A stretch of DNA of 64,000 bases from Pseudomonas chlororaphis subsp. piscium. Its GTDB lineage: Bacteria; Pseudomonadota; Gammaproteobacteria; Pseudomonadales; Pseudomonadaceae. Location: contig NZ_CP027707.1 of NCBI RefSeq assembly GCF_003850345.1, positions 3,720,001-3,784,000 of the forward strand. The letters run 5' to 3'. The translations under genes and the position numbers were made by a program. The notes under the pieces were generated by a model, which saw nothing but the letters and a program-made list of their open reading frames with translations, had not been told where the DNA came from and made no database searches. Position 1 is the stretch's first letter. Every line of letters begins with the position of its first letter. This document shows, in pieces, positions 25,843 to 56,140 of this stretch.

Positions 25843-25926
25843 CGACAAAACCGTGAAGACACCTCAACCCGACTGAACCCTTGCATTACCTGTTGCGACA
25901 AAAACAACAAGCTCAGGAGCACCCTT

Positions 25927-27222: not shown

Positions 27223-27241
27223 ATCGAACAAGGTGAACCCC

Positions 27242-31247: not shown

Positions 31248-31581
31248 AGGATGACTCTCGGGAATTGAGGACTGCGAGCATCCATGCACTGAACCCTGTC
31301 ACCAGCGGCGGCTGGCGGCCTGACAGGTAGGCGCCACTGTTGTAGTTGGTCTGTGGCCCTAATACCGATATCGGCAGCGCTTTAGGTTTTTTGCAGGTAT
31401 TTGTAAAAAAAAATTTCTTCACAGGTGGGTGTTTCAGGACTGATACAACAGGCCCATGACCAGCCCCCCATGAAAAGTGCAATTCATTCGCCGGAAAAGC
31501 CATTCAGTCGCCACCCCGCCCTGCCCATCATGGGCCCCAGCTCATAAAGACAACCCATAACAACAATGACTGGAGTGGATG
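31248..31581. promoter_or_regulatory. Divergent intergenic region between the chemoreceptor and hpaB
   Basis: 334 bp with no gene. I see a perfect 10-bp palindrome CCGATATCGG (31365-31374) followed by an AT-rich tract (about 31380-31425, including a run of nine A). No convincing sigma-70 or sigma-54 promoter and no CGTTAAC-type operator like that of the hpaG promoter are seen. GGAG at 31572 is the hpaB ribosome-binding site. Confidence 0.4.
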
Positions 31582-33144: not shown

Positions 33145-33219
33145 GCGCCGCCCGACCTGCATGACCCGCGGGGCGACCAGCGCTTGCCGGCGCCCGCGGG
33201 TTCACCCGAGGAATCTGTC

Positions 33220-33732
33220 ATGACTCAACTCGATCCCAAGCAACAGGCCTTTCGCAATGCCATGGCGCACATGACCGCGGCGGTCAATGTCATCACCAGC
33301 AACGGCCCGGCCGGACGCTGCGGCATCACCGCCACCGCGGTCTGCTCGGTCACCGACAGCCCGCCCAGCCTGATGGTCTGCGTCAACCGCAACAGCGCCC
33401 TGAATCCGGTGTTCAAGCGCAACGGCCGACTTTGCGTCAACGTGCTGTGCGGCGAACACGAAGAAGTCGCCCGGCACTTCGCCGGCATGACCGGGGTGGA
33501 GATGGAGCAGCGCTTCAGCCTGCACCCCTGGCGCGACGGCCAGGACGCCCTGCCGGTGCTCGACGGTGCCCTGGCCAGCCTGCAGGGGCGGATCACCGAG
33601 GTGCAGGAAATCGGCACCCACTCGGTGATGCTGGTGCAGCTGGATGAGATCTGCGTGCGCGAACACGGCGATTCGCTGGTGTATTTCAGCCGTGGTTTCC
33701 ATCGGTTGCAGCGGGCCGTCCAGGCGGCCTGA
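33220..33732 (+). CDS. hpaC: 4-hydroxyphenylacetate 3-monooxygenase, flavin reductase component
   Basis: A 170-residue NAD(P)H:flavin oxidoreductase of the flavin_reductase (HpaC) family, the usual length. It supplies reduced FAD to HpaB. Conserved parts: FRNAMAHMTAAVNVITSNGPAG, GITATAVCSVTDSPPSLMVCVN, and the C-terminal VYFSRGFHRL. GAGGA precedes ATG 33220. The TGA stop at 33730-33732 is itself the first triplet of an 8-bp tandem repeat. Confidence 0.95.
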   Translation: MTQLDPKQQAFRNAMAHMTAAVNVITSNGPAGRCGITATAVCSVTDSPPSLMVCVNRNSALNPVFKRNGRLCVNVLCGEHEEVARHFAGMTGVEMEQRFSLHPWRDGQDALPVLDGALASLQGRITEVQEIGTHSVMLVQLDEICVREHGDSLVYFSRGFHRLQRAVQAA

Positions 33733-37363: not shown

Positions 37364-37387
37364 ATTCCCTCATAGATGGAGATGCCC

Positions 37388-38494
37388 ATGACCCGCAAAA
37401 CCGCGTTTTTCTTCGATGAACTCAGCCTCTGGCACAGCGCCGGGCCACATGCGCTGACGCTGCCGGTGGGCGGCTGGGTGCAACCGCCCGCCGCGGCCGG
37501 GCACGCCGAATCGCCGGAAACCAAGCGCCGCCTGAAAAGCCTGCTGGACGTCTCCGGCCTGACCCGCCAATTGCTGGTGCGCAGCGCCACGGCCGCCAGC
37601 GAAGAGGACCTGCTGCGGGTGCACAGCGCCGAGTACCTGCAACGCTTCAAGTCCCTGAGCGAGGCCGGTGGCGGCGAACTCGGCCCGCAAGCGCCAATCG
37701 GCCCGGGCAGCTACGAGATCGCCCGGCTTTCCGCCGGCCTGGCCATGGCCGCGGTGGATGCGGTGCTCGGCGGCGAAGCCGACAATGCCTACTCGCTGTC
37801 CCGCCCGCCGGGACACCATTGCCTGGCCGACGGCGCCATGGGTTTCTGCTTCCTGGCCAATATCGCCATCGCCATCGAGGCGGCCAAGGCCAGGCGCGGC
37901 CTGGGCAAGGTCGCAGTGATCGACTGGGACGTGCACCACGGCAACGGCACCCAGTCGATCTTCGAGGAACGCGGCGATGTGCTGACCATTTCCCTGCACC
38001 AGGACGGCTGCTTCCCGCCCGGCTACGGCGGCGAGCTGGACCGCGGCCGCGGCGCCGGGCTGGGGGCCAATCTCAATATCCCGCTGCTGCCCGGCAGCGG
38101 CCACGATGCCTACCTGCATGCCCTGCAACGCATCGTGATTCCGGCCCTGGAGCGCTTCCAGCCGGAGCTGATCATCGTTGCCTGCGGCTACGACGCCAAC
38201 GCGGTCGACCCGCTGGCGCGCATGCTGCTGCACAGCGACTCGTTCCGCGCCATGACCCGCCAGGTGCGCGAAGCCGCCGAGCGCCTGTGCCACGGGCGCC
38301 TGGTGCTGGTGCATGAAGGCGGTTATTCCGAGGCCTATGTGCCCTTCTGCGGGCTGGCAACGGTCGAGGAGCTGGCCGGCGTCAAGACCGCGGTGACCGA
38401 CCCGATGCTGGAATTCATCCGGCTCCAGCAACCGAACCCGGAGTTCCAGGCGTTTCAGCGCCAATTGCTCGACCGTCAGGCCGAGGCGCTGTAG
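37388..38494 (+). CDS. Class II histone-deacetylase-like amidohydrolase (HDAH type)
   Basis: A 368-residue zinc amidohydrolase of the HDAC/acetylpolyamine family, closest in pattern to bacterial HDAH proteins (Bordetella/Alcaligenes FB188 HDAH, P. aeruginosa PA3774). The catalytic His pair is in SRPPGHHCLADGAMGFCFL. Zinc ligands are Asp and His in DWDVHHGNGTQ and Asp in CGYDANAVDPLARM. The active-site Tyr is in VHEGGYSEAYVPFCGL. Such enzymes remove acyl groups from amines; the true substrate is unknown. ATG 37388 has GGAG six bases upstream. It follows an MFS gene across a REP doublet. Confidence 0.88.
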   Translation: MTRKTAFFFDELSLWHSAGPHALTLPVGGWVQPPAAAGHAESPETKRRLKSLLDVSGLTRQLLVRSATAASEEDLLRVHSAEYLQRFKSLSEAGGGELGPQAPIGPGSYEIARLSAGLAMAAVDAVLGGEADNAYSLSRPPGHHCLADGAMGFCFLANIAIAIEAAKARRGLGKVAVIDWDVHHGNGTQSIFEERGDVLTISLHQDGCFPPGYGGELDRGRGAGLGANLNIPLLPGSGHDAYLHALQRIVIPALERFQPELIIVACGYDANAVDPLARMLLHSDSFRAMTRQVREAAERLCHGRLVLVHEGGYSEAYVPFCGLATVEELAGVKTAVTDPMLEFIRLQQPNPEFQAFQRQLLDRQAEAL

Positions 38495-38500
38495 CGACCT

Positions 38501-38612
38501 TGTAGGAGCGAAGCTTGCTCGCGATGGATTTACAACGATAACGCGCAGTGGCAGGTACATCGCCGCTGCGCGGCTATCGCGAGCAATCGAGCGTCGACCG
38601 GCTGCTCCTACG
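38501..38612. repeat. REP doublet with a long-variant right unit that supplies a stop codon
   Basis: TGTAGGAGCGAAGCTTGCTC on the left, then the inverted long variant (CGCGAGCAATCGAGCGTCGA then CCGGCTGCTCCTACG). The CTA at 38608-38610, part of the REP end, is the TAG stop of the AraC gene on the minus strand. Confidence 0.9.
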
Positions 38613-39585
38613 AGGAGGGGGATGCCTGGGAGGCGCGCACTGCGCTTGGGGTCTGGCCGTAATGGGCCTTGAAGGCCCGGGCGAAGTGGGCCTGGCTGGT
38701 GAAGCCGTGGCGGTAGGCGATTTCGCCGATATCCAGGCCCGCTCCCCGTGGGCTGCTCAGCAGGTCATGGGCCTGCTGCAGGCGTTTTTCCAGGATAAAG
38801 CGGCTGGGCTGGGTGTCCTCCAGGGCAAACAGCCGGCTCAGGTGCCGCGGCGAAATGCCGGTTTGCGCGGCCACCCGTTCGCAGCTCAGGTCCGGGTCGG
38901 CCAGTTGTTCGTTGATGCACTGCTTGGCCGCCAGCAGATAGGAGGCGCTCAGCGCATTGATCCGCCGCTCTCCCACCTGCCCGGCGATCAGGCTCCCCAA
39001 CAGTTCCAACGCCTGGTTCTGATAATCATCGGCGTCCTCGCTCAAAGGCTGCTGGAAAAACCCCCGAGTGCGTTCGCCCAGGGTACGCAGCAACAGGCGC
39101 TGCACGCCGCTTTGTCCGCCGATCTTCAGCGGGCGGTCGAAGCGCTTGAGGCAGCGCTCGGCGAACAGTTCCTGGGGAATGTCGAAAATGAACTGGCGCA
39201 TCGGCCCGGAGAACCCGAACAGGTAGGGTTTGTCGGTGCGGTAGACGATCAGCTCGCCCGGTTCGAGCAACTGGCAGGCGCCGTCCTGATAGAAAAACGA
39301 GCCGCTGCCGGTGACGAAGGACACGAACACCGACTCCTTGGGCACCGAGCGGATCATCGAGTTGTCACGCTCGACCACGTGCTCGTTGCCCTCGATCTGC
39401 GCCAGGCGCATGCCCTCCAGCTGCAGGTTGTCCTGGCTGGCGGCAAAACCGCTTTCACAAAAAGAGCTGCATTTGAGGCCGACCAGGGTGGAGGCGTTGT
39501 AGTCCTCCCAGAAGGCCAGCCGCTGATCCAGGGCGATGCTCTGGGTGCAGGCATGCCGGGTTTCGAGCAAGGCGCATGGAGACAT
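38608..39585 (-). CDS. AraC-family regulator (AraC_binding_2 / FeaR-like)
   Basis: A 325-residue regulator with an N-terminal AraC_binding_2-type domain (DQRLAFWEDYNASTLVGLKC, FVSFVTGSGSFFYQDGAC, ELIVYRTDKPYLFGFSGPMR) and a C-terminal AraC helix-turn-helix pair (LSCERVAAQTGISPRHLSRL and GEIAYRHGFTSQAHFARAFK). This domain pair occurs in activators of aromatic catabolism. ATG 39585 is taken (GAGAAG upstream); ATG 39600 would add five residues. The gene is divergent from the cupin-led operon, which it most likely activates. Its stop codon lies in a REP unit. Confidence 0.87.
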   Translation of the reverse strand: MSPCALLETRHACTQSIALDQRLAFWEDYNASTLVGLKCSSFCESGFAASQDNLQLEGMRLAQIEGNEHVVERDNSMIRSVPKESVFVSFVTGSGSFFYQDGACQLLEPGELIVYRTDKPYLFGFSGPMRQFIFDIPQELFAERCLKRFDRPLKIGGQSGVQRLLLRTLGERTRGFFQQPLSEDADDYQNQALELLGSLIAGQVGERRINALSASYLLAAKQCINEQLADPDLSCERVAAQTGISPRHLSRLFALEDTQPSRFILEKRLQQAHDLLSSPRGAGLDIGEIAYRHGFTSQAHFARAFKAHYGQTPSAVRASQASPSS

Positions 39586-39772
39586 TTTTATTCTTCTCAT
39601 GGGCAGAAAGTTCGCCGGTCGGCAAGGCAGTGACCGGATACCGGGGCCGCAGCACACACCGGCCGCGGTCGTTCATTAATATATGAACCTTATACCCTGT
39701 CAACGTGAAACGCTGTGGGTGCAAGTCGATTTCCAGGGTAAACAGCGTCCCTGAAGCCTGTAGGAAAAGCCT

Positions 39773-39804
39773 CGTCCGATCCAGTCAACAATCCCGTCCG
39801 ATTC
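39773..39804 (+). promoter_or_regulatory. Direct repeats 22 bp apart, candidate AraC-activator site
   Basis: CGTCCGATCC (39773-39782) and CGTCCGATTC (39795-39804) repeat with a 22-bp period, two helical turns, 67 bp before the start of the cupin gene. This spacing is typical of AraC-family half-sites. Confidence 0.5.
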
Positions 39805-39870
39805 GATAAAACCCCGCCTGAGCGCCGCGCCTAAAGTCGCCTCGACTCCCACAACGAATAGAGGCCGACC

Positions 39871-40404
39871 ATGCCCGAAGCCGCCAGCCGTGAATTCTGG
39901 AAAGACCTGCAACCGATCGCCAATTGCTTCAAGCCGGACGCCAAGCCCGAGGTCTACCTGCCCAATGCCGCCAGCGACGACCTGAAGCTCTATGTGCCCT
40001 TCACCGAAACCGTGTCTTCGCGGCCGCTGTGGATCTCGCCGAGCGAGAACCGCTGGTGCGACATCCTCATGGCCAGCAGCGCCGGGCTGGTGAACCGGCA
40101 TTACCACCCCCACGAAGTGTTCGCCTACACCCTGTCCGGCAAGTGGGGCTACCTGGAGCACGACTGGACCGCCACCGCCGGCGACTTCGTCTACGAGACC
40201 CCGGGCGAAGGCCACACCCTGGTGGCCTACGAGCACGAGCAACCGATGCGCGCGTTTTTCATCGTCAAGGGCCCGCTGATCTGGCTCGACGAACAAGGCG
40301 AGCCGGAGGGTTATTTCGACGTGCACTCCTACATCGCCATGTGCCGCGCGCATTACGAAAAGATCGGCCTCGGCGCGGCCTATATCGACACGCTGTTTCG
40401 CTGA
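39871..40404 (+). CDS. Cupin protein of the 2,4'-dihydroxyacetophenone dioxygenase family
   Basis: A 177-residue cupin. The metal-binding first motif is visible as NRHYHPHEVFAYTLSGKWGY and the second as YETPGEGHTLVAYEHEQPMRAFF. Length and motifs match 2,4'-dihydroxyacetophenone dioxygenase-like proteins; the Alcaligenes enzyme is iron-dependent and splits an aryl hydroxyketone into a carboxylic acid and formate. Whether this one is active on the same substrate is unknown. It leads an operon with an MFS carrier, a zinc dehydrogenase, a porin and a GMC oxidoreductase, under a divergent AraC gene. Confidence 0.82.
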   Translation: MPEAASREFWKDLQPIANCFKPDAKPEVYLPNAASDDLKLYVPFTETVSSRPLWISPSENRWCDILMASSAGLVNRHYHPHEVFAYTLSGKWGYLEHDWTATAGDFVYETPGEGHTLVAYEHEQPMRAFFIVKGPLIWLDEQGEPEGYFDVHSYIAMCRAHYEKIGLGAAYIDTLFR

Positions 40405-40434
40405 GCTCACCTGTCCCTCCCGCGGAGAACGACC

Positions 40435-41700
40435 ATGGCTTACAACAACAATAAAGCCGGTTACGAGAACATCCTGCTGGGCGTGCTGTTCCTGACGTTC
40501 GGTTTCGTCTTTTTCGATCGTTTGGCCCTGTCCTTCCTGTTCCCCTTCATGGCCGACGAGCTGCAACTGAGCAACAGCCACCTGGGCATGCTGTCGTCGG
40601 TCCTGGCCCTGGCCTGGGCGGTGTCCGGCGCGCTGGTCGGGGCCTGGTCGGACCGGCGCGGCAAGCGCAAGCCGCTGCTGATCGTCGCGGTGATCCTGTT
40701 TTCCCTGTGCTCGGCGCTGTCGGGGCTGGTCACCGGCTTTCTCAGCCTGCTGCTGTTCCGCGGCATCATGGGCCTGGCCGAAGGGCCGATCCTGCCGCTC
40801 TCGCAATCGCTGATGGTGGAGGCCTCCTCGCCCCATCGCCGGGGCCTGAACATGGGCCTGCTGCAAGGCTCGGCGGCCGGGCTGCTGGGCGCGGTGATCG
40901 GCCCGCCGGTGCTGATCGCCCTGGCCGAAGCCTACGGCTGGCGCCATGCCTTTATCGTCTCGCTGGTCCCCGGATTGCTGATCGCCCTGCTGATCTGGCG
41001 CTTTGTGCGCAACGACGCGCCGCCGGCACCGATCACGGACAACAGTTCTGCTGCGCCGGTCAATCGCCTGGCCCTGCTGAAAAGCCGCAACATCGTGCTC
41101 TGCACCCTGATCAGCTGCGTGTTCCTCACCTGGTTCGTGATCCTGATTTCCTTCACCCCGACCTTCCTGGTCAAGGTCCGCGGCTACAGCCCGGCGAGCA
41201 TGGGCACGGTGATGAGTTGCCTGGGCGGCGCCTGGGTGTTGTGGGGCTTCGGCGTGGCGGCGATTTCCGACCGCTTCGGCCGCCGCCCGACCCTGGTGCT
41301 GTTCTCGCTGATCGCCGCCTGCTGCCCGATCGCCCTGCTCTACGCCAACAGCCCGCTGCTGATGGGCGTGCTGATGCTGCTGACCTACACCGGCCTGGGT
41401 TGCTTCACCCTGTTCATGGCGACCATCCCGGCGGAAACCGTGCCCCGGGAAGTCATGGCCACCGCGCTGGGCATGATCATGGGCATCGGCGAGCTGGTGG
41501 GCGGTTTCGTCTCGCCGACCATCGCCGGCTTCGCCGCCGACCGTTACGGCCTGTCCATCGTGATGTGGATCTCCTGCGGCGGCGCCCTGCTGGCCGCGCT
41601 GTTGGCGCTGTTCCTCAAGGAAACCGCGCCGGCGGTCCTGGCCCGCGGCCGCCGCGCTGAACCTTCCCCCTCTTGTGCCCTGCAAGGAAACCAGCCATGA
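40435..41700 (+). CDS. MFS transporter, aromatic-acid/sugar-acid type
   Basis: A 421-residue inner-membrane carrier with about twelve helices. MFS motif A is in the loop after helix 2 (GAWSDRRGKRKPL) and its second copy in the other half (AISDRFGRRPTLVL). GIMGLAEGPILPLSQSLMVEAS is the helix-4/5 signature of the anion:cation symporters. It is 30 bp downstream of the cupin gene, and its stop overlaps the next start (ATGA at 41697-41700), so it belongs to one operon. It presumably imports the operon's substrate. Confidence 0.88.
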   Translation: MAYNNNKAGYENILLGVLFLTFGFVFFDRLALSFLFPFMADELQLSNSHLGMLSSVLALAWAVSGALVGAWSDRRGKRKPLLIVAVILFSLCSALSGLVTGFLSLLLFRGIMGLAEGPILPLSQSLMVEASSPHRRGLNMGLLQGSAAGLLGAVIGPPVLIALAEAYGWRHAFIVSLVPGLLIALLIWRFVRNDAPPAPITDNSSAAPVNRLALLKSRNIVLCTLISCVFLTWFVILISFTPTFLVKVRGYSPASMGTVMSCLGGAWVLWGFGVAAISDRFGRRPTLVLFSLIAACCPIALLYANSPLLMGVLMLLTYTGLGCFTLFMATIPAETVPREVMATALGMIMGIGELVGGFVSPTIAGFAADRYGLSIVMWISCGGALLAALLALFLKETAPAVLARGRRAEPSPSCALQGNQP

Positions 41701-42761
41701 AAGCATTACGTTGGCATGCCGCCCGCGACCTGCGCCTGAGCGATCTGCAACTGCCACAGCCCGGCCCGGGCGAGGTGCTGGTCCAGGTGGCCTACTGCGG
41801 TATCTGCGGCAGCGACCTGCACGAATACGCCGACGGTCCGCACTCGATCCCGCAACAGCAGCCCCACTCGCTGTCCGGTTGCCGCGCGCCCCTGACCCTC
41901 GGCCATGAATTCTGCGGCCAGGTCCTGGCGGTGGGCGCGGGCGTCGAGCGGGTCCAGGTCGGCAGCCGGGTGGCGGTGGAGCCGGAGTATCGCTGCGGCG
42001 ATTGCCAGTACTGCCGCGCCGGCCAGTACAACCTCTGCCAGTCCATGGGTTTCATCGGCCTGATGGGCGACGGCGGTTTCGCCGAACAGGTGCTGGTGCC
42101 GGCCTACATGCTGCACCCGCTGCCGGATTCAGTGAGCTTCAAGCAGGCCGCGGTGCTGGAGCCGGCGGCGGTGGCCTTTCACGCGCTGAACCAGAGCAGC
42201 CTGCTGGCGGGCGACAGCTGCGTGGTATTCGGCCTCGGCCCGATCGGCCTGCTGCTGATCCTGCTGGCCCGGCTGCGCGGCGTGGAGCGGATCTTCGCCG
42301 TGGACATCAGCCCGGAACGCCGACGCCTGGCCCGCGACTTCGGCGCCCAGGAAGTGCTCGATGGCCACGCCGCCGACCTGCCGCAACGCTTGCACGAATT
42401 GAGCGGCGGCGGAGTCGATACGGCCTTCGAGGCCGCCGGCAGCCAGCAGACCCTGAGCCTGGCCCTGCATGCCCTGCGCAAGGGCGGTGAGGTGGTGCTG
42501 GTGGGGCTGATGGGTGAGGTCAGCGTCGATGCCTTCCACCTGGTGAACAACGAACTGCGCCTGCTCGGCAGCGTGGGTTATCGCAATGCCTATCCGCCGC
42601 TGATCGAGCTGTTGGCCAGCGGCCGCCTCGACCTGACCCGCGCGGTGACCCGCTGCGTGACCCTGGACCAGGCGGTGGAGCATGGCTTCGAAGCGCTGCT
42701 GCGGGACAAGAGCCAGATCAAGGTGCTGGTCAATCCCAACCCCGAGCTGGCCAAGGCGTGA
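41697..42761 (+). CDS. Zinc-dependent medium-chain dehydrogenase (butanediol/threonine dehydrogenase-like)
   Basis: A 354-residue NAD-dependent alcohol dehydrogenase. Catalytic zinc ligands are in CGICGSDLHEY and GHEFCG; the structural zinc has the cysteine cluster CGDCQYCRAGQYNLC. The NAD site is GLGPIGLLL followed by the acidic AVDISPERRR, which favours NAD over NADP. The insert PHSLSGCRAPLTLGHEF is the mark of 2,3-butanediol dehydrogenase-like members. In this operon it may oxidise an alcohol made or imported by its neighbours. The start overlaps the MFS stop. Confidence 0.88.
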   Translation: MKALRWHAARDLRLSDLQLPQPGPGEVLVQVAYCGICGSDLHEYADGPHSIPQQQPHSLSGCRAPLTLGHEFCGQVLAVGAGVERVQVGSRVAVEPEYRCGDCQYCRAGQYNLCQSMGFIGLMGDGGFAEQVLVPAYMLHPLPDSVSFKQAAVLEPAAVAFHALNQSSLLAGDSCVVFGLGPIGLLLILLARLRGVERIFAVDISPERRRLARDFGAQEVLDGHAADLPQRLHELSGGGVDTAFEAAGSQQTLSLALHALRKGGEVVLVGLMGEVSVDAFHLVNNELRLLGSVGYRNAYPPLIELLASGRLDLTRAVTRCVTLDQAVEHGFEALLRDKSQIKVLVNPNPELAKA

Positions 42762-42763
42762 CC

Positions 42764-42865
42764 CTGTAGCCGCTGCCGCAGGCTGCGATAAGGCCGAAGG
42801 CCTTCGGCGATCTGGAGACCGCAACGGCCCTGCGGGCCGATCGCAGCCTGCGGCAGCGGCTACAG
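42764..42865. repeat. REP doublet, CTGTAGCCGCTGCCG family, inside the cupin-GMC operon
   Basis: CTGTAGCCGCTGCCGCAGGC and its inverted copy enclose GAAGGCCTTC and GGCCCTGCGGGCC hairpins. It separates the dehydrogenase gene from the porin gene and may set their relative expression. Confidence 0.92.
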
Positions 42866-42910
42866 ACCTGAACGACTCATCACAAAAACAACAAGAAACG
42901 AGTACCGACC

Positions 42911-44212
42911 ATGAAAAGCACTCCCCTGCTGTGCCCGCTGCTGGCGGCTGTCCTGTTCACCCCTTTGTGCCAGGCCGAAACTCCCACGCCCAGCCGCGAA
43001 GGCCCGCTGGCCGGGCTCGGCGAGCAACTGGCCGGCTACGGCATCCGACCCCATGTGCAGTTCTGGAGCCTGTCGATGAACAACCTCGACACCGGTCCGC
43101 GGGAACACAGCTTCGGCAACAGCGGCGACCTGTTCGTCGGCGCCGACTTCGACCTCGAGACCCTCGCCGGCCTCGAAGGCGCGGCCGTTCATTTCGAGGA
43201 AACCTTCTTCATCCTCGACACCGCCACCGGCCAGCCGACCTCGCGCAACTGGCAAGGCGCCGCCGGCAGCTATTTCGCCGGCGCGCCGATCCACAACGAC
43301 ATCACCAGCAACCAGTTGAGCCTGCTGACCTACCAGCAGACCTGGCTCGACGGCCAGGTCGACATGAGCCTGGGGCGCACCAACGCCCGACGCTACTTCT
43401 ATATCTACAACTGCGAAACCCTGGTCACCTGCAACGACCCGATCATCGATTCGTCCACCGGCATCCTGCCGCCGCCCTACGGCAGCTGGGGCGGCTACCT
43501 GAAGTACCAGCCGACGCCAGGCTTGTATGTGCATGCCGGCGCCTTCGAATCGAACCCGGTGGACTACCTGAAAAAACGCAAGGGCCTGGACTTCAGCACC
43601 GACGACGCCAGCGGCACCAGCCTGCTGCTGGGCATCGGCAGCAAGAACGACGGCGCCTACAGCTCCCACTACGAACTCAATGGCTACTACAACACCTCCA
43701 ATCAGTACGACCCGCTGACCGGCGCCAGCGAACACGGCACCGGCGGCGCCTTCTTCAAGTTCCAGCAAGGCTTCTGGCGGGCCGACGGTGGCCAGGGCAC
43801 CGCGCCCCAGGCCTTGCTGGCGTTCGGCTCGCTGTCGCTGGCCGCCGACGACAAGCAGCCCTTCAGCCATTTCGCCGAAATCGGCCTGACCTACCTGGCG
43901 CCCTTCGACCGCCCCCAGGACAAGCTCAACCTCAAGGCCAGCTACCTGCGCCTCAACGACCACCAGTTGCGCTTCCAGCAGCAGGCGCGGATCGCCAACG
44001 GCGGCGACCCCAGCCTGGGCGAACGCAATGTCTACGCCATCGAGGCCAACGGCCATTTCGCCCTGACCCGGCACCTGGCGCTCGAACCCAGCGTGCAGTA
44101 CCTGATCAACCCGGACAACTTCTACAACCCCGAGGCCCGCGAGCTCAGCGGCAACGGTTTTGTCGTCGGCCTGCAAGTCATGTACGACGTCGGCGCGGCG
44201 CTGGGGTTGTGA
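42911..44212 (+). CDS. OprB-family carbohydrate-selective porin
   Basis: A 433-residue outer-membrane protein. The signal peptide (LLAAVLFTPLCQA) is cleaved after about residue 22. The mature part has the OprB layout: PLAGLGEQLAGYGIRPHVQF, GDLFVGADFDLETLAGLEGAAVHF, LTYQQTWLDGQVDMSLGRTN, and strong C-terminal strands (NGFVVGLQVMYDVGAALGL). OprB-type porins pass sugars, polyols or other small polar compounds. It lies in the AraC-controlled operon between the dehydrogenase and the GMC oxidoreductase, so it probably admits their substrate. Confidence 0.85.
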   Translation: MKSTPLLCPLLAAVLFTPLCQAETPTPSREGPLAGLGEQLAGYGIRPHVQFWSLSMNNLDTGPREHSFGNSGDLFVGADFDLETLAGLEGAAVHFEETFFILDTATGQPTSRNWQGAAGSYFAGAPIHNDITSNQLSLLTYQQTWLDGQVDMSLGRTNARRYFYIYNCETLVTCNDPIIDSSTGILPPPYGSWGGYLKYQPTPGLYVHAGAFESNPVDYLKKRKGLDFSTDDASGTSLLLGIGSKNDGAYSSHYELNGYYNTSNQYDPLTGASEHGTGGAFFKFQQGFWRADGGQGTAPQALLAFGSLSLAADDKQPFSHFAEIGLTYLAPFDRPQDKLNLKASYLRLNDHQLRFQQQARIANGGDPSLGERNVYAIEANGHFALTRHLALEPSVQYLINPDNFYNPEARELSGNGFVVGLQVMYDVGAALGL

Positions 44213-44244
44213 ACCTGCTTCTCACTGCCAACGAGGTATCTCCC

Positions 44245-45924
44245 ATGACTGACTCTGCCCCGCGTTCGTTCGACTACATAGTGGTCGGGGCCGGCTCGGC
44301 CGGTTGCGTGCTGGCCAACCGGCTGTCCGCCGATCCGCAGCTCAGCGTCTGCCTGATCGAAGCCGGCCCCAGCGACCGCAGCCTGTTCCCCGGCGCCTAT
44401 GTGCGCACCCCGGCGGGCATCATCCGGCTGATCGCCAACCCGAAGTGGAACTGGATGCACCAGTTCAGCGCCCAGGCCGCCAGCGGCGACCGCCCGATCC
44501 CCTGCCCCCGCGGCCGACTCTGGGGCGGCTCCAGCGCGATCAACGGCATGATCTACATCCGCGGCCACCGCAGCGACTACGACCGCTGGGCCGCGGCCGG
44601 CAACCAGGGCTGGAGCTACGACGAACTGCTGCCGTACTTCCTGCGCTCGGAGCACTTCGAGCCCGGCGCCTCGCCCTGGCACGGCCAGGGCGGCGAACTG
44701 AACGTCGCCGCGCAACGCAGCCCGAGCCCGATCAATGAGGTGTTCTACCAGGCCGCCCAGGAACTGGGCTGGCGCTACAACCCGGACTTCAACGGCGAGG
44801 AACAGGAAGGCTACGGCCCCTTCCATGTCACCCAGATCAACGGCGAGCGTTGCAGCGCCGCGCGGGCCTTCCTGCACCCGGCGCTGTCGCGACCCAACCT
44901 CAGCGTACTGAGCTCGACCCTGACCCACCGGGTGCTGCTGGAAGGCAACCGCGCCTGCGGCGTCGAGGTCAGTCAGGATGGCGCGGTGTTCCAGCTCCAG
45001 GCCCGGCGCGAAGTGATCCTCAGCGCCGGGGCGATCAACTCGCCGCAGGTGCTGCTGCTCTCCGGCATCGGCCCGGCCGCCGAGCTGGAGCGCCATGGCA
45101 TCGCCCAGCGCCATGAACTACCGGGGGTCGGCCACAACCTGCAGGACCATCAGGACGTGGTGCTGATGTACCGCTGCGACAGCGAACTGACCTATGGCGT
45201 GTCGGCCAAGGGCCTGCTGCCCCTGGCCCGCTCGCCCTGGCAGTACCTGAGCCGGCGCAGCGGTCCGCTGACTTCCAATACCGTGGAGTCCGGCGGCTTC
45301 CTGCGCCTGCAAGCCGAGGACGCCGCGCCGGAACTGGGCCTGATCGTCGCCCCGGCGCTGAAGAACCAGCCCCAGCGCCTGGTGCCCCTGGGCCATGGCG
45401 TCAGCCTGCACATCGCGGTGATGCACCCGCAAAGCCGTGGCCAGGTCCGGCTCAATTCCGCCGATCCCCATGACAAGCCACTGATCGACAGCAATTTCCT
45501 CAGCCACCCGGAGGACCTGCGCAAACTGGTGGCGGGCGTGCGCCTGGTGCGCAAGCTAGCGGCGAGCCAGGCCTTCGCCCGGCGCCTCAAGGGCGAGCTG
45601 GTGCCCGGCCCGCAAGTCGAGAGCCAGGCGCAGATCGAGCAGTGGATTCGCGACAACCTGGGCACCGTGTTCCACCCGGTCGGCACCTGCAAGATGGGCC
45701 ACGACGAGCAAGCGGTGGTCGACGACCAGCTGCGGGTCCACGGCGTGCAGGGCCTGCGGGTGGCCGACGCGTCGATCATGCCGAGCCTGACCACCGGCAA
45801 TACCAACGCGGCGGCGATCATGATCGGCGAAAAGGCCGCGGACCTGCTGCTGGGTAAGGCACCGCTGAGCATTCAGGTTCCCGCTCGCCTGGAGGAACAG
45901 GCATCCGCGCTGACCATTGGCTGA
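44245..45924 (+). CDS. GMC-family flavin oxidoreductase (alcohol/choline dehydrogenase-like)
   Basis: A 559-residue FAD enzyme. It has the Rossmann start YIVVGAGSAGCVLANRLS, GMC signature 1 (RGRLWGGSSAINGMIYIRGH), signature 2 (ILSAGAINSPQVLLLSGIG), and the C-terminal catalytic His in VFHPVGTCKMG with NTNAAAIMIGEKAAD. GMC members oxidise alcohols such as choline, polyethylene glycol or aryl alcohols. Start ATG 44245 follows GAGGT; a much longer in-frame reading upstream is out of frame with the dehydrogenase and porin genes and is not coding. It is the last gene of the operon; a REP doublet follows. Confidence 0.9.
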   Translation: MTDSAPRSFDYIVVGAGSAGCVLANRLSADPQLSVCLIEAGPSDRSLFPGAYVRTPAGIIRLIANPKWNWMHQFSAQAASGDRPIPCPRGRLWGGSSAINGMIYIRGHRSDYDRWAAAGNQGWSYDELLPYFLRSEHFEPGASPWHGQGGELNVAAQRSPSPINEVFYQAAQELGWRYNPDFNGEEQEGYGPFHVTQINGERCSAARAFLHPALSRPNLSVLSSTLTHRVLLEGNRACGVEVSQDGAVFQLQARREVILSAGAINSPQVLLLSGIGPAAELERHGIAQRHELPGVGHNLQDHQDVVLMYRCDSELTYGVSAKGLLPLARSPWQYLSRRSGPLTSNTVESGGFLRLQAEDAAPELGLIVAPALKNQPQRLVPLGHGVSLHIAVMHPQSRGQVRLNSADPHDKPLIDSNFLSHPEDLRKLVAGVRLVRKLAASQAFARRLKGELVPGPQVESQAQIEQWIRDNLGTVFHPVGTCKMGHDEQAVVDDQLRVHGVQGLRVADASIMPSLTTGNTNAAAIMIGEKAADLLLGKAPLSIQVPARLEEQASALTIG

Positions 45925-45935
45925 AAGGTGGCCAC

Positions 45936-46039
45936 TTGTAGGAGCGAAGCTTGCTCGCGATGGACTTGAGAGCGCCGCGTTTAGCCAGTCGGTACGCGTT
46001 ATCGTTAACGATCATCGCGAGCAAGCTTCGCTCCTACAG
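45936..46039. repeat. REP doublet, GTAGGAGCG family
   Basis: TGTAGGAGCGAAGCTTGCTC and its inverted copy flank the GAGAGCGCCGCGTTTAGCCA...CGTTAACGA spacer also seen at 28264-28367. It follows the GMC gene. Confidence 0.92.
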
Positions 46040-46113
46040 GGGATCACCTGCGCTCGACTGATCGGTGTTGACCCAGAAGCCCGCGTCCCTATGGATTTTG
46101 CCGTTGGGCGGAC

Positions 46114-46142
46114 ATATAGTTGCACCATACAACCATATATGG
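46114..46142 (+). promoter_or_regulatory. Inverted repeat upstream of the MarR-GNAT gene, candidate operator
   Basis: ATATAGTTG (46114-46122) is inverted as CAACCATAT (46130-46138) with one mismatch and a 7-bp spacer. The perfect palindrome CCATATATGG (46133-46142) overlaps the right arm. The size and position suit autoregulation by a MarR dimer. Confidence 0.5.
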
Positions 46143-46151
46143 AGCCTAGCC

Positions 46152-47126
46152 ATGTCCTCCCCTTCGCCGCTGGTGGATCAGATCCGTAACGAATCGCGCA
46201 AGCTGGTGCGCGAGCTGGGCTTCATGGGCGCCACCCTGGCCGGCTCCGATCTTGCGCCTTCAGCGGTGCATGCGCTGATCGAACTCGATCTGTACGCCCC
46301 GCTCACCGCCGCCCAGCTGGGCAAGACCCTGAACCTGGAAAAGTCCTCGGTCAGCCGCCTGCTGGCCAAGCTCATCGAACGCGGCGATATCCAGGAAAGC
46401 CCCAGCCCCACCGATGCCCGGGAAAAACACCTGGACCTGACCGACAGCGGGCGCAAACAGGTCGCCGCCATTCATGCCTTTGGCAGCGCCCAAGTGCAAC
46501 AGGCGCTGCGCCTGCTTGCGCCACGGGAGCAAAGCCAGCTGGTCGCTGGCATGCGCAGTTATGCCCAGGCGCTGGAGGCCTGCCGCCTGGGCCATGGGCA
46601 GATCGCCGCGGCAATCCCTAGCGTGCAGCGCGGCTATCGGCCGGGCATGATCGGTCGCATCACCGAGCTGCATGCACACTACTACTCACGCCTGGTGGGT
46701 TTCGGGCAGTTCTTTGAACAGCGCGTCGCGGCGGGTCTGGCGGAGTTCAGCGAGCGCCTGGACCACCCGGATAACGGCATCTGGCTGGCCGTGCTGGACG
46801 AGCAGATCGTCGGTTCGATCGCCATCGACCTCGGCGGCGCCCCGGACCACCCTCAGGCCGACAAGAGTGCCCACCTGCGCTGGTTCATCCTCGACGAGGC
46901 GGCCCGTGGCACCGGCACCGGTCGCCTGCTGCTCAAGGCGGCGCTGGAGCACTGCGATCAGGCGGGGGCAGCGTCCTGCTACCTGTGGACCTTCAGCGGC
47001 CTGGACGCCGCCCGGCATCTGTACGAGTCCTTCGGCTTCCACCTGGTGGAGGAACAGCCGGCGGCGCAATGGGGCAAGACCGTGCTGGAGCAGAAGTTCG
47101 AGCGCCGCCATCCAGGCCTGGCCTGA
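46152..47126 (+). CDS. MarR regulator fused to a GNAT acetyltransferase domain
   Basis: A 324-residue two-domain protein. Residues ~1-145 form a MarR winged helix (LIELDLYAPLTAAQLGKTLN, LEKSSVSRLLAKLIERGDIQ, then the wing SPTDAREKHLDLTDSGRKQV). Residues ~165-320 are a GNAT N-acetyltransferase (IWLAVLDEQIVGSIAID, LRWFILDEAARGTGTGRLLL with the acetyl-CoA loop, then GLDAARHLYESFGFHLVEE). The fusion is a known architecture in proteobacteria, but its acyl acceptor is unknown. GGAG lies seven bases before ATG 46152. It converges on the DUF1176 gene with a 6-bp gap. Confidence 0.88.
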   Translation: MSSPSPLVDQIRNESRKLVRELGFMGATLAGSDLAPSAVHALIELDLYAPLTAAQLGKTLNLEKSSVSRLLAKLIERGDIQESPSPTDAREKHLDLTDSGRKQVAAIHAFGSAQVQQALRLLAPREQSQLVAGMRSYAQALEACRLGHGQIAAAIPSVQRGYRPGMIGRITELHAHYYSRLVGFGQFFEQRVAAGLAEFSERLDHPDNGIWLAVLDEQIVGSIAIDLGGAPDHPQADKSAHLRWFILDEAARGTGTGRLLLKAALEHCDQAGAASCYLWTFSGLDAARHLYESFGFHLVEEQPAAQWGKTVLEQKFERRHPGLA

Positions 47127-48298: not shown

Positions 48299-49210
48299 TC
48301 AGGACGAGGGTTTCACCGCGCCCTGGCGCGCCCGATATTCCCCCGGCGTCATCTTCGCGTAGCGCTGGAAGAACCGGCTGAAATACGCCGGGTCCTTGAA
48401 CCCCAGCTGGTAGCAGATTTCATTCACCGAACTGGCGGTGAACAGCAGCAGGCGCTTGGACTCCTGCATCAGGCGCTCGTACACCAGGCGTTTCGACGGC
48501 AGGTCGGCGATGCGCCGACAGACGTCGTTGAGGCGCGCCTCGGTGACGCCGATCTGCCCGGCATAGCGCGACAGCGGCCAATGCTCCAGGTACTGGGCTT
48601 CGATCAGTTCGTTGAAGCGATGGAAGATGTGCAGGTCTTCGTGGCGCGCCGGGCGCGCCTTGAGGGAATTGGCCGAGAGCCTGAGCAGGCTGATCAGGAT
48701 CAAGCGGGTCAGGGCCTCCAGCGCTGGCGCATGCCCGGCGCCCTGCCCGGCGACCTCCTCCTGCAATTCATCGAACAGCAGCGCCAGGCGCCGTGCCTCG
48801 CCAGCGAACCCCGGACCCAGGCGCGCCAGGGCCACGCAGGCCGGCGCTACCTGCGGACCGCTAGCGAGGCGGCTGTCGGCTTCGATCAGCTCCCACACCA
48901 ACTGCTGGCGCACGGTCAGCACGTGGCCTTCGCTGTCGGCCTCGGTGACAAAGGAATGGGCAATGGTCGGCGGCGTGAGGAAAAACATCGGCCCCGATTC
49001 CAGGTATTGCTGGTCGTCGAGGTAGACCCGCACCGCGCCGCTTTTCACGTAGTGCACCTGGAAAAACCGGTCGTGGCGGTGCACCGGCATGTTGCGGCCG
49101 AAGAACCCGGCCAGGTTGCTCAGCTTGTCGTAATGCACCTGCGAGTCGGCGTAACGCTGGTCGTAGACCTGGCCGATGTTGATGTTGGGGATCGGCTGGC
49201 GATCGCTCAT
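48299..49210 (-). CDS. hpaA: 4-hydroxyphenylacetate catabolism regulator, AraC family
   Basis: A 303-residue AraC-type activator; E. coli HpaA has about 296 residues. The N-terminal cupin (PVHRHDRFFQVHYVKSGAVR, GPMFFLTPPTIAHSFVTE) binds the effector, and the C-terminal helix-turn-helix (VTEARLNDVCRRIADLPSKR; VNEICYQLGFKDPAYFSRFF) binds DNA. In E. coli HpaA activates hpaBC in response to 4-hydroxyphenylacetate. Here it sits next to the lower-pathway operon, divergent from hpaG1, as in P. aeruginosa. ATG 49210 is the family start; the longer frame upstream is AT-rich leader. Confidence 0.9.
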   Translation of the reverse strand: MSDRQPIPNINIGQVYDQRYADSQVHYDKLSNLAGFFGRNMPVHRHDRFFQVHYVKSGAVRVYLDDQQYLESGPMFFLTPPTIAHSFVTEADSEGHVLTVRQQLVWELIEADSRLASGPQVAPACVALARLGPGFAGEARRLALLFDELQEEVAGQGAGHAPALEALTRLILISLLRLSANSLKARPARHEDLHIFHRFNELIEAQYLEHWPLSRYAGQIGVTEARLNDVCRRIADLPSKRLVYERLMQESKRLLLFTASSVNEICYQLGFKDPAYFSRFFQRYAKMTPGEYRARQGAVKPSS

Positions 49211-49351
49211 GGTGGCGTGTCTCTTTTTTTCGCTCGCGGCGCTTTTTATTTCGCCGCAGCGCTTTTTTATTTTTACCCGCGGCAAGCGCCCACATCCTGC
49301 GTGATTCGCGGCCTGTTCACCAGTACACGGCAAACGGGTCATGGCCGGCGC

Positions 49352-49380
49352 TTGACGATCGTTAACATATTAAATATAAC
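49352..49380 (+). promoter_or_regulatory. Sigma-70-type promoter of the hpaG operon
   Basis: TTGACG (49352-49357), a 17-bp spacer, then TATAAC (49375-49380). It is the best sigma-70 promoter in the window and is overlapped by the CGTTAAC repeats. The leader to the hpaG1 ATG is about 50 bases. Confidence 0.75.
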
Positions 49381-49395
49381 GTTAACACATTAACG
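49360..49395. promoter_or_regulatory. Tandem CGTTAACAyATTAA operators over the hpaG promoter
   Basis: CGTTAACATATTAA (49360-49373) and CGTTAACACATTAACG (49380-49395) repeat with a 20-bp period. The second is also an inverted repeat (CGTTAA/TTAACG). They cover the spacer, the -10 box and the start site, as expected for a repressor. In E. coli the MarR-type HpaR represses this operon; no hpaR gene is in the window. Confidence 0.6.
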
Positions 49396-49435
49396 AAATC
49401 ACCTCGTCTTCCGCGATGCTCAGGAGAAAACCACA

Positions 49436-50119
49436 ATGAGCCGTGCACTGCATGAAGTCGCCACCGGCACCCTGTTCGGCGTCGCGCTGAACTATCAGGG
49501 CCTGTTGCGCAGCCACCTGGAATCCTTCACCCAGCCGCCCTACCAGAAGCCACCGGTCAAGCCGGTGCTGTTCATCAAGACCCCCAACACCCGCAACGTC
49601 CACGGCGGCGCCGTGATCTACCCGAAGGGTGTCGAGCGCCTGCAACCGGGCCCGGCGCTGGGCGTGGTGATCGGCAAGAGCACCAGCCGGGTCAGCGCGG
49701 AAAACGCCCTGCAGCACGTCGCCGGCTACACCATCGTCAACGAATTCAGCCTGCCGGAAGACAGCTACTACCGCCCCGCCGTCAAGGCCAAGTGCCGCGA
49801 CGGTTTCTGCGCCCTCGGCCCGGAACTGGTGCCGGCGGCACAGGTGGCCGATCCCCATGGGCTGGAACTCAAGCTGTGGGTCAACGGCGAGCTGCGCCAA
49901 CACAACAGCACCGCCAACTTCGTACGCGGCATCCCCCAGTTGATCGCCGAACTCAGCGAGTTCATGACCCTGCACGAGGGCGACGTGCTGATCACCGGCA
50001 CCCCCGAAGGCCGCGTCGACGTCAAGCCCGGCGACCGCGTCGAAGTGGAGATCAGCGGCCTGGGCCGTCTCGCCAATCACGTTGTTGCCGAAACAGCCGC
50101 CGAAATAGCCGCCGAATAA
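49436..50119 (+). CDS. hpaG1: Bifunctional isomerase/decarboxylase, N-terminal-type subunit
   Basis: A 227-residue fumarylacetoacetate-hydrolase-fold protein. With HpaG2 it decarboxylates 5-oxopent-3-ene-1,2,5-tricarboxylate and isomerises the product in homoprotocatechuate breakdown. E. coli HpaG (~429 residues) is a fusion of the two halves, which are separate genes here. Metal-binding fold motifs include KPVLFIKTPNTRNVHGGAVI, GYTIVNEFSLPEDSYYRPA and VLITGTPEGRVDVKPGDRVEVE. CAGGAG precedes the ATG. First gene of hpaG1G2EDFXHI. Confidence 0.9.
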   Translation: MSRALHEVATGTLFGVALNYQGLLRSHLESFTQPPYQKPPVKPVLFIKTPNTRNVHGGAVIYPKGVERLQPGPALGVVIGKSTSRVSAENALQHVAGYTIVNEFSLPEDSYYRPAVKAKCRDGFCALGPELVPAAQVADPHGLELKLWVNGELRQHNSTANFVRGIPQLIAELSEFMTLHEGDVLITGTPEGRVDVKPGDRVEVEISGLGRLANHVVAETAAEIAAE

Positions 50120-50128
50120 GGAGCCGCC

Positions 50129-50929
50129 ATGAAACACGCCCGCATCCGTTATCAAGGCCAGGTCCACGACGTGGTGGTCAACGCGCCCAACAGCGTGAAA
50201 CTGGCCGATGGCCGTGTGCTCGCCGAGGATCAGGTCGAGTGGCTGCCACCGGCCACCGGCAGCATGTTCGCCCTGGGCCTGAACTACGCCGACCACGCCG
50301 CCGAACTGGCCTTCAAGCCGCCGACCGAGCCGCTGGTGTTCATCAAGTCCCCCGGCACCTACACCGGCCACAACCAGGTCACCTGGCGCCCGGACAACGT
50401 CGCCTACATGCACTACGAGTGCGAACTGGTGGCGGTGATCGGCAAGACCGCGCGCAACGTCAAGCGCGAGGACGCCCTGGACTACCTGGCCGGCTATACG
50501 GTTTGCAACGACTACGCGATCCGCGACTACCTGGAAAACTACTACCGGCCCAACCTGCGGGTGAAAAACCGCGACGCCACCACCCCGGTGGGTCCCTGGA
50601 TAGTCGACGTCGCCGACGTGCCCGAACCGAACCGGCTGAAGCTGCGCACCTGGGTCAACGGCGAGTTGCGCCAGGAAGGCACTACCGCCGACATGATCTT
50701 CGACATCCCCTACCTGATCGAATACCTGTCCAGCTTCATGACCCTGCAACCCGGCGACATGATCGCCACCGGTACCCCCGAAGGCCTGTCCGACGTGGTG
50801 CCCGGCGATGAAGTAGTGGTGGAGGTCGAAGGCATCGGCCGGCTGGTCAACCGCATCGTCGGCGAGGCGGAGTTCTTCCGGATCAAGGCACAACACGACA
50901 CGCAACTGGCGGCCAAGGAGCACGCATAA
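50129..50929 (+). CDS. hpaG2: Bifunctional isomerase/decarboxylase, C-terminal-type subunit
   Basis: A 266-residue FAH-family protein, partner of HpaG1. It has MFALGLNYADHAAELAFKPP, the acidic metal site CELVAVIGKTARNV, GYTVCNDYAIRDYLE, and MIATGTPEGLSDVVPGDEVVVE. The first ~40 residues (IRYQGQVHDVVVNAPNSVKL) are the N-terminal extension seen in this branch. It starts 9 bp after hpaG1, and its TAA is directly followed by the hpaE ATG. Confidence 0.92.
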   Translation: MKHARIRYQGQVHDVVVNAPNSVKLADGRVLAEDQVEWLPPATGSMFALGLNYADHAAELAFKPPTEPLVFIKSPGTYTGHNQVTWRPDNVAYMHYECELVAVIGKTARNVKREDALDYLAGYTVCNDYAIRDYLENYYRPNLRVKNRDATTPVGPWIVDVADVPEPNRLKLRTWVNGELRQEGTTADMIFDIPYLIEYLSSFMTLQPGDMIATGTPEGLSDVVPGDEVVVEVEGIGRLVNRIVGEAEFFRIKAQHDTQLAAKEHA

Positions 50930-52390
<1,461 letters not shown>

Positions 52391-52403
52391 GGTTGAAAAA
52401 CCC

Positions 52404-52511
52404 GCTGTAGCCGTGGCCGCGGGCCGCGATCCGGCGCCTTGTTCACAGTCGATCGAGGTGTCCCGGTTACGACTGCTACGCAGTCGATCGCAGCCTTCGG
52501 CAGCGGCTACA
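52404..52511. repeat. REP doublet between hpaE and hpaD
   Basis: CTGTAGCCGTGGCCGCGGGC and GCAGCCTTCGGCAGCGGCTA form a less perfect doublet with an inner GATCG...CGATC stem. It interrupts the hpa operon. Confidence 0.85.
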
Positions 52512-52545
52512 AGATCGAACAATAAGATGTTTCAGGAGAAGCACC

Positions 52546-53403: not shown

Positions 53404-53480
53404 ACGCCGCGCCAGCCTCGCCAACCCAGCCCTGGAATTCCAGGGCTGGCCGCCGAAGGTTCGCCCGCAAGGAGGATCAC

Positions 53481-53870: not shown

Positions 53871-53871
53871 C

Positions 53872-53973
53872 CTGTAGCCGCTGCCGCAGGCTGCGATAAG
53901 GCCGAAGGCCTTCAGCGATCTTGAAGTCGCTGCGGCCGTCCCGGCCGATCGCAGCCTTCGGCAGCGGCTACAG
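53872..53973. repeat. REP doublet between hpaF and hpaX
   Basis: CTGTAGCCGCTGCCGCAGGC and its inverted copy with an inner GAAGGCCTTC hairpin, the second REP doublet inside the hpa operon. Confidence 0.92.
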
Positions 53974-54015
53974 AGTCCGTGCCCTATCGACAAGAACAAT
54001 AAAGAGGCCCCGCCC

Positions 54016-55323: not shown

Positions 55324-55325
55324 CC

Positions 55326-56129: not shown

Positions 56130-56140
56130 GGAGGACGCTC

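Follow-up and report, generated by a model that had tools for sequence, protein, structure and literature searches.

An operon around a predicted 2,4'-dihydroxyacetophenone dioxygenase in Pseudomonas chlororaphis: a possible route from aryl glycols to 4-hydroxybenzoate

What compound is taken up and broken down by the products of a compact operon of Pseudomonas chlororaphis subsp. piscium, in which a cupin dioxygenase is encoded together with two transport proteins and two alcohol-oxidizing enzymes of different types? The five genes and a divergent AraC-type regulator occupy positions 38608-45924 of the window, i.e., the whole stretch of 64,000 nucleotides analyzed here (NZ_CP027707.1, positions 3,720,001 to 3,784,000), which lies within a 7.07-Mb single-contig genome. 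An earlier note, made from the letters of the window, had described a divergent AraC_binding_2 regulator and five same-strand genes with a 30-bp gap and an ATGA overlap, all of which we located, and a check of the open reading frames confirmed the frames listed below. No published assignment of this operon was found in the open-access literature that we searched. The reading that we consider probable is that of a peripheral catabolic route, in which a para-hydroxyphenyl vicinal diol would be converted to 4-hydroxybenzoate and formate. The chemistry of the cleavage and the dioxygenase itself are known; the proposal for the upstream step, the operator and the exchange of enzymes are new. The features of the locus are the following.

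38608..39657, minus strand: AraC-family regulator, FeaR-like, presumed activator (Pfam AraC_binding_2 and HTH_18)
39774..39813, plus strand: proposed operator, two direct repeats GTCCGAtnCrgnCAA / GTCCGATTCGATnAAACC, 22 bp apart (footprint alignment of 23 sequences)
39832..39837, plus strand: TAAAGT, candidate -10 element downstream of the operator, conserved as cTAaAGT (putative, from the alignment)
39871..40404, plus strand: 2,4'-dihydroxyacetophenone dioxygenase (DAD), a cupin with three-histidine Fe(II) site (identity to PDB 4p9g)
40435..41700, plus strand: major facilitator superfamily (MFS) transporter, galactonate- or aromatic-acid-symporter-like (MFS_1, 179.5 bits)
41697..42761, plus strand: zinc medium-chain dehydrogenase (ZnDH), (R,R)-2,3-butanediol dehydrogenase-like (match to 6ie0)
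42764..42865, no strand assigned: palindrome resembling a repetitive extragenic palindrome (REP), between ZnDH and OprB (50-nt arms, 80% complementary)
42911..44212, plus strand: OprB-family outer-membrane porin (Pfam OprB, 227.6 bits)
44245..45924, plus strand: GMC flavoprotein alcohol oxidase/dehydrogenase (solved GMC relatives)

The cupin shares 133 of 173 residues (77%) with the crystallized DAD of Alcaligenes sp. 4HAP (PDB 4p9g). Many of its relatives carry the DAD name from their sources, and the nearest come from Pseudomonas sp. NFIX28, P. chlororaphis and P. morbosilactucae (the record of the source genome itself was perhaps left out). The iron site, His77, His79 and His115, corresponds to His76/78/114 of 4p9g and is invariant in 81 sequences, i.e., the window cupin and 80 relatives. 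We checked 22 iron-ligand and pocket residues taken from PMC4219425, the window numbering being that of the paper plus one, an offset set by the three iron ligands. The window cupin has the same residue at all 22 positions, including the counterparts of Tyr93, Phe43, Phe129, Trp61 and Asp63, and 20 are invariant across the window and the 80 relatives, the exceptions being Val41, which is Ala in one sequence, and Met156, which is Leu in 47. Trp62 and Asp64 of the window cupin are retained, and this pair is invariant in the 81 sequences; in the available portion of PMC4219425, their counterparts are modelled as holding the phenolic hydroxyl, loss of this hydroxyl from the substrate lowers the rate to 5%, and DAD is described as unusual among dioxygenases in cleaving the side chain rather than the ring. 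Because sequence and pocket both agree with those of DAD itself, the substrate ring is very likely para-hydroxyphenyl. We have high confidence in the reaction predicted for the cupin, in which a 4-hydroxyphenyl alpha-hydroxyketone would be cleaved and 4-hydroxybenzoate and formate released. The general claim of the earlier note, a catabolic operon for one class of compound in which a diol or hydroxyketone is oxidized and then cleaved to an acid and formate by a DAD-type cupin, is supported; where that note left the substrate as possibly aryl or terpenoid, the aryl half is sustained, and a terpenoid, polyol or generic diol is disfavored. The window enzyme is like the DAD of Alcaligenes sp. 4HAP (PDB 4p9g, 5bpx) in the three iron histidines and the checked pocket; the neighbors of the window gene are alcohol dehydrogenases and transporters, whereas the available portion of PMC4219425 states neither the gene neighborhood in Alcaligenes sp. 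4HAP nor the step that makes the substrate there.

Which enzymes accompany a DAD elsewhere was examined in the best 80 of the loci of 283 DAD relatives, so that the counts below refer to these 80 and leave more distant DAD contexts uncounted. The counts come from tblastn probes, with family scans run on chosen neighbors rather than on every gene; five loci (L011, L020, L040, L045 and L066) end at contig ends. A match to an alcohol dehydrogenase probe lies near the cupin in 73 of the 80 loci (a raw count), of which 43 have ZnDH and/or a short-chain dehydrogenase/reductase (SDR) downstream and 30 have an SDR of the alphaproteobacterial type. Under a stricter coverage limit the number is 72, all within 3 kb, the ZnDH of L020, truncated by the contig end, being counted in the first tally only; of the eight loci without a dehydrogenase at this limit, five are those cut by contig ends, and three (L050, L084, L085) are not cut. 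All 32 Pseudomonas loci have the divergent regulator and an MFS gene directly after the cupin. Fifteen of them continue with ZnDH-OprB-GMC as in the window, 13 with OprB-SDR, one (P. aeruginosa PA7) with ZnDH-SDR-OprB-GMC and one with ZnDH-SDR-OprB; the remaining two are cut by contig ends. Conservation of the five-gene order in other genomes had been suggested by the earlier note as a check, and because the identical order is found in 15 of the 80 loci, the arrangement is not due to chance. Outside Pseudomonas, loci of Marinobacterium, Marinomonas, Comamonas and Caballeronia have cupin-MFS-ZnDH with or without SDR, and one Comamonas locus has cupin-MFS-SDR.

A second type of cluster was seen in 27 loci, alphaproteobacterial by their titles, that match a probe for a branched-chain-type ABC permease; 25 of these match aldehyde dehydrogenase (ALDH) and 16 a thiamine pyrophosphate (TPP) enzyme. 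These clusters (ABC transporter, SDR, ALDH and TPP enzyme) have the combination of DAD and alcohol dehydrogenase in common with the window, but differ in the transporter and in the lack of MFS, OprB and GMC probe matches beside the cupin. The thiamine-diphosphate enzyme precedes the DAD gene in L051, L058, L105 and L107 (the one in L051 exceeds the cut-off of NF006203), and it may represent an alternative hydroxyketone lyase.

The oxidoreductases vary among the Pseudomonas loci. The earlier note had treated the GMC protein and the zinc dehydrogenase as needed parts of a fixed five-gene route, and this is not supported: 13 of the 32 operons have neither of the two genes and carry a single SDR instead. 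In a tree of the concatenated AraC, cupin, MFS and OprB sequences, the 13 SDR-only loci form one clade with support 1.0, nested within the ZnDH+GMC form. The 13 loci represent 12 genomes, since Pseudomonas salomonii ICMP 14252 has two loci of this form, L022 and L029. The ZnDH orthologue was found in none of these 12 genomes (matches at the limit used were present in four, with 41-42% identity); as for GMC, one genome has an orthologue (84%), in ten the nearest relatives are 41-49% identical, and in the last nothing matched at the limit used. Reciprocally, the SDR of this clade is missing at E 1e-50 from 16 genomes with the ZnDH+GMC form, the genome of the window included, and the seventeenth genome examined, PA7, has a 48% identical relative of it. 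Thus, one SDR is able to stand in for ZnDH and GMC, and the exchange is nearly clean genome-wide. Simple retention of an ancestral SDR was considered as the origin of the SDR-only form, and is unsupported, the SDR of this clade and that of PA7 being only about 48% identical and located at different positions.

Since a single SDR replaces ZnDH and GMC, all three probably serve one net oxidation, that of an aryl glycol to a hydroxyketone. The closest solved relative of ZnDH is 6ie0, an (R,R)-2,3-butanediol dehydrogenase (E 1e-89, residues 1-348); similarity over the full length is accompanied by the motifs CGICGSD, GHEF, LEPAAV and GLGPIG, zinc motifs among them, and the P. aeruginosa orthologue is annotated as a 2,3-butanediol dehydrogenase. 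The SDRs have the equivalog BudC, meso-butanediol dehydrogenase (NF052558), as the best or second-best model, with 190.4 bits for L021 and 187.5 bits for L039, which is below the cut-off of 270 and leaves them outside BudC proper. Both kinds of enzyme are therefore nearest to butanediol dehydrogenases, which points to a vicinal-diol/hydroxyketone couple and, hence, to an aryl glycol. Known 2,3-butanediol/acetoin dehydrogenases (the BdhA-type medium-chain dehydrogenase, MDR, and the BudC-type SDR) resemble the operon enzymes in these best matches, but differ in that the operon SDRs remain under the BudC cut-off and the genes here are linked to an aromatic dioxygenase. Oxidation of a diol by ZnDH and its stereospecificity are predictions. 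By analogy with the enzymes of butanediol metabolism, we would guess at a stereochemical division of labor, ZnDH acting on one enantiomer and SDR or GMC on the other.

The other proteins are assigned with varying precision. Domains over the Pfam cut-off are AraC_binding_2, HTH_18, Cupin_7, Cupin_2, MFS_1, ADH_N, ADH_zinc_N and OprB; the GMC protein was identified from matches to solved structures over nearly its full length, and motifs that we take to be those of GMC enzymes are present in it. Its nearest solved relatives are the chloramphenicol-inactivating oxidoreductase 8b7s and, scoring close behind, alcohol oxidases. Against the choline dehydrogenase models, it reaches 602.7 bits for NF002550 (cut-off 605) and 507.2 bits for BetA (TIGR01810), which is under the cut-off of 732.1 and does not place it in that family. 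For ZnDH, no cut-off was reached among the 25 NCBIfam models listed out of 26 matched; the best NCBIfam models for the MFS protein are a D-galactonate transporter and an aromatic acid/H+ symporter, both well under cut-off. For OprB, the only solved relatives are Porin B 4gey/4gf4 (E 1.3e-15).

The best NCBIfam match of the regulator is FeaR (NF007243), the activator of phenylethylamine catabolism; at 109.7 bits against a cut-off of 199, the window protein differs from FeaR proper, and the operon genes include no amine oxidase. Its true start is probably downstream of the listed GTG, because distant relatives align from about residue 19-21. With up to three mismatches allowed, a search of the 7.07-Mb genome finds the operator pattern at a single place and the reversed pattern, used as control, at none. 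In loci L009-L038 it is present with up to three mismatches in 28 of 30 cases and with four in the other two. Ten loci outside the derivation set, all close relatives of loci used in the derivation, have 0-4 mismatches compared to minima of 7-10 in 60 shuffles each. The null distribution from 449 other 400-bp segments is 8-15 mismatches, besides one value of 0 (the own operator of L013, displaced) and one of 26 (a run of N). The operator recurs in all Pseudomonas forms of the DAD operon, including the SDR-only form, and a weaker version (5-7 mismatches) lies at equal distance in P. aeruginosa, Pseudomonas L041 and Marinobacterium. Outside Pseudomonas, Azoarcus sp. TTM-91 (L066) has the pattern with three mismatches 100 bp before the cupin; the contig stops there and does not show the regulator. 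A conserved operator in the divergent promoter region, with one occurrence in the genome, fits a single AraC regulon, in which binding and activation by the regulator would be expected.

Two genomes with the SDR-only operon, the L038 genome (L100) and genome G181 (L102, L103), have a lone regulator-GMC pair elsewhere, which the same operator precedes with 1-2 mismatches; the regulators of these pairs are 70-71% identical to that of the window. The positions of the pairs are as follows.

L100:5444-8464: stand-alone regulator-GMC pair
L102:7532-10399: stand-alone regulator-GMC pair

Because the DAD-operon operator precedes the lone pair, GMC is linked to the regulon also where its gene lies apart from the operon. 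The earlier note had named a cupin often separated from GMC and dehydrogenase genes as telling against its proposal; this is seen in part, in the SDR-only form, while the operator still connects GMC to the regulator. The start of the L100 pair resembles the leader of the cupin gene, which would fit the loss of the central part of an operon copy.

The five genes, which may be co-transcribed, are spaced as follows: the gap between the cupin and MFS genes is 30 bp, MFS and ZnDH overlap in ATGA, ZnDH and OprB are 149 bp apart, and OprB and GMC 32 bp apart. Although the reading frame of GMC extends upstream as far as 42682, the gene starts at 44245. A terminator scan gave three matches, none of them inside an operon gap, compared to 4.9 expected from shuffles; a sigma-70 consensus scan found no promoter, and a search of the window against Rfam at the gathering score found no match.

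The genomic context also favors an aromatic substrate. The operon sits between hpaBC (31579-33732) and hpaA/hpaG (48299 onward), and HpaB, HpaC, HpaA and the N-terminal domain of HpaG are all over cut-off; the genes for 4-hydroxyphenylacetate degradation are thus split around the operon, at 31579-33732 and 48299-56941, an hpaG-like run following hpaA, in which the later genes were judged by eye. Among the 80 DAD loci, hpaBC lies within the fetched DNA in nine. In the annotated P. aeruginosa record CP109682, the order is hpaB-hpaC-thioesterase-regulator and, divergently, DAD-MFS-butanediol dehydrogenase-SDR-porin-GMC. That 4-hydroxyphenylacetate genes flank the operon here, and that hpaBC stands beside it in P. 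aeruginosa, both favor the proposed route. The record CP109682.1 (L104) is 425 kb long and labelled a plasmid; its content (hpaBC, the operon, a fimbrial gene) is like that of an ordinary chromosome, of which it is perhaps a piece.

The six proteins that the P. aeruginosa operon has in common with the window are 69-87% identical; it differs in an extra SDR between ZnDH and OprB, which the window lacks. We take PA4100 to be the GMC gene, and PA4094-4097 and PA4099 to be other genes of this operon. The SDR is 100% identical to PDB 4avy over 241 residues (4b79 is the other entry for this protein). According to the available portion of PMC3539698, 4avy is PA4098, a probable SDR with NAD bound and no known substrate, its site is said to preclude NADP, and the gene is called essential, while a transposon screen lists PA4098 in a table. 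For PA4100, the published description is that of a dehydrogenase with no known function. A study of mixed biofilms with Candida albicans, which calls PA4097 a lipolytic protein, reports a mild increase of PA4097 and PA4098 (log2 1.0 and 0.8); we mention this as a lead only.

Taking these results together, we propose the following steps for the probable route from a para-hydroxyphenyl diol. (i) The substrate, most simply 4-hydroxyphenylglycol or a ring-substituted analogue, would pass the outer membrane through OprB and be taken into the cell by the MFS carrier. (ii) The benzylic (secondary) alcohol would be oxidized to the alpha-hydroxyketone by ZnDH and/or GMC here, and by the BudC-like SDR elsewhere. 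(iii) DAD, with Fe(II) and O2, would cleave the side chain between its carbonyl carbon and its carbinol carbon, which would yield 4-hydroxybenzoate and formate. (iv) Breakdown would be completed by 4-hydroxybenzoate hydroxylase, protocatechuate dioxygenase and formate dehydrogenase, genes for which are encoded elsewhere in the genome and exceed their cut-offs (pobA, 692 bits; protocatechuate dioxygenase beta, 360 and 355 bits; Fdh-alpha, 941 bits). (v) The FeaR-like AraC protein would activate one promoter via the direct repeat with 22-bp spacing.

Several observations weigh against this reading. The linkage to dehydrogenases in 73 of 80 loci was obtained without a matched background, and dehydrogenases are common genes. 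The operon is patchy, the cupin being present in 9 of 199 sampled Pseudomonas genomes, the genome of the window included. A close GMC protein is found in six of these nine (unlinked in G181) and is missing from three, with at most seven candidates scored per genome; the genome G149 has regulator-MFS-GMC without a cupin at the limit used, and GMC therefore has a use without DAD. The pocket methionine is replaced by leucine in 47 of the 81 sequences. The presence of GMC and MDR, two unlike enzymes, in one operon suggests either two oxidation steps or two stereoisomers, and the combination of OprB with a galactonate-like MFS protein hints at a more polar, sugar-like substrate. Finally, the SDR of the SDR-only clade and that of the PA7 form are just 48% identical, so that their functions may differ.

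The alternative that survives best, although we regard it as unlikely, is a substrate with a longer side chain, i.e., a lignin-derived arylglycerol or phenylpropanone (such as 4-hydroxyphenyl- or guaiacylglycerol), of which GMC would oxidize the terminal alcohol and ZnDH the benzylic one, with DAD cleaving a substituted alpha-hydroxyketone. Two different oxidoreductases suit two steps, and the nearest enzyme to GMC acts on chloramphenicol, an aryl-propanediol; GMC enzymes acting on chloramphenicol oxidize its side-chain alcohol. However, the SDR-only clade has a single oxidoreductase in the operon, and the pocket of the cupin is identical to that of a DAD known for a two-carbon side chain. In favor of this alternative, PMC10866074 reports that of all genes of Novosphingobium MBES04 a DAD-like one responds most strongly to compounds related to lignin, and that one of the effectors is a phenylpropanone monomer. 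As to hydroxyacetovanillone and hydroxyacetosyringone, no pertinent catabolic paper was found among those listed in the open-access literature.

Slightly less likely still is the uptake of 4-hydroxyacetophenone or of free 2,4'-dihydroxyacetophenone, with DAD being catabolic and the dehydrogenases interconverting ketone and diol or acting in detoxification. Alcohol dehydrogenases are reversible, and the strain in which DAD was described, Alcaligenes sp. 4HAP, takes its name from 4-hydroxyacetophenone, on which it grows. Conversely, the operon has no gene for a side-chain hydroxylase, and the only monooxygenase probed for nearby was the ring hydroxylase HpaBC, present at the nine loci mentioned above, other monooxygenases not having been searched for. 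A Baeyer-Villiger monooxygenase (HAPMO) is not among the five operon genes, the rest of the genome not having been searched for it. In addition, the P. aeruginosa SDR binds NAD and its site, according to PMC3539698, is said to preclude NADP, which suits oxidation over reduction.

Catabolism of a terpenoid, a polyol or a sugar acid has the OprB family and the similarity to galactonate transporters in its favor, but the aromatic stacking pocket of DAD is kept and 4-hydroxyphenylacetate genes lie nearby in two lineages, and we consider it very improbable. A terpenoid or polyol substrate was accordingly set aside, given the retained pocket. The least credible alternative is that GMC detoxifies a nitroaryl alcohol resembling chloramphenicol and that DAD completes the conversion to 4-nitrobenzoate: the nearest solved GMC is a chloramphenicol-inactivating oxidoreductase and DAD is near a PnbB-family gene in three loci, but we rejected it because none of the 81 sequences departs from the Trp/Asp pair that binds the phenol and the PnbB probe matched only these three of the 80 loci, none of them from Pseudomonas, and also because other GMC alcohol oxidases score close to 8b7s and the chloramphenicol papers found for the combination, judged from their listing entries, mention no cupin. 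The three loci, two from Pigmentiphaga and one from Burkholderiales (L061, L064, L068), have PnbB-family (4-hydroxylaminobenzoate lyase) and formamidase-family genes near DAD, which suggests a different aromatic substrate there.

Several features adjoin the operon. Upstream, a histone-deacetylase-family amidohydrolase (37376-38494) lies behind an MFS gene, a Phenol_MetA_deg-family outer-membrane protein and a LuxR regulator, and this group recurs in eight fetched loci (L009, L012, L014-L019). Just downstream, a MarR regulator is fused to a GNAT acetyltransferase (46065-47126). The core motif of the REP-like palindrome, GCAGCCTGCGGCAGCGGCTACAG, has nine occurrences in the window at up to two mismatches, and another repeat-type palindrome, different from the GCAGCCTGCGGCAGCGGCTACAG type, follows the GMC gene (45926-46049). 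Farther away, at 24054-28234, an operon resembling those for 2-ketogluconate utilization was recognized by eye (isomerase/epimerase-like protein, kinase, MFS, 2-hydroxyacid dehydrogenase).

With respect to natural sources of a phenylglycol, including catecholamines or octopamine, nothing direct was found in the open-access literature; a route for 3,4-dihydroxyphenylglycol has been proposed in Comamonas by mammalian analogy, as given in the available portion of PMC6307125, via methylation and aldehydes and not via DAD. On the broader scale, we tentatively suggest that an unnamed, widespread aryl-glycol pathway may be the setting in which the DAD family has its physiological role. Oxidoreductases of complementary stereopreference (a butanediol-type MDR for one enantiomer, SDR or GMC for the other) would feed both enantiomers of 4-hydroxyphenylglycol-type substrates into one achiral hydroxyketone for DAD, lineages would have kept or swapped enzymes according to the stereoisomers met, and the PA4098 operon would be the fullest version.

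The bacterial source of the DAD substrate is not stated in the available portion of PMC4219425, and aryl-glycol oxidation offers a concrete candidate for it. If the proposal is true, it would provide the first function for an orphan operon of a heavily studied Pseudomonas, the SDR of which was crystallized without a substrate, and a clean example of enzyme replacement within one regulon.

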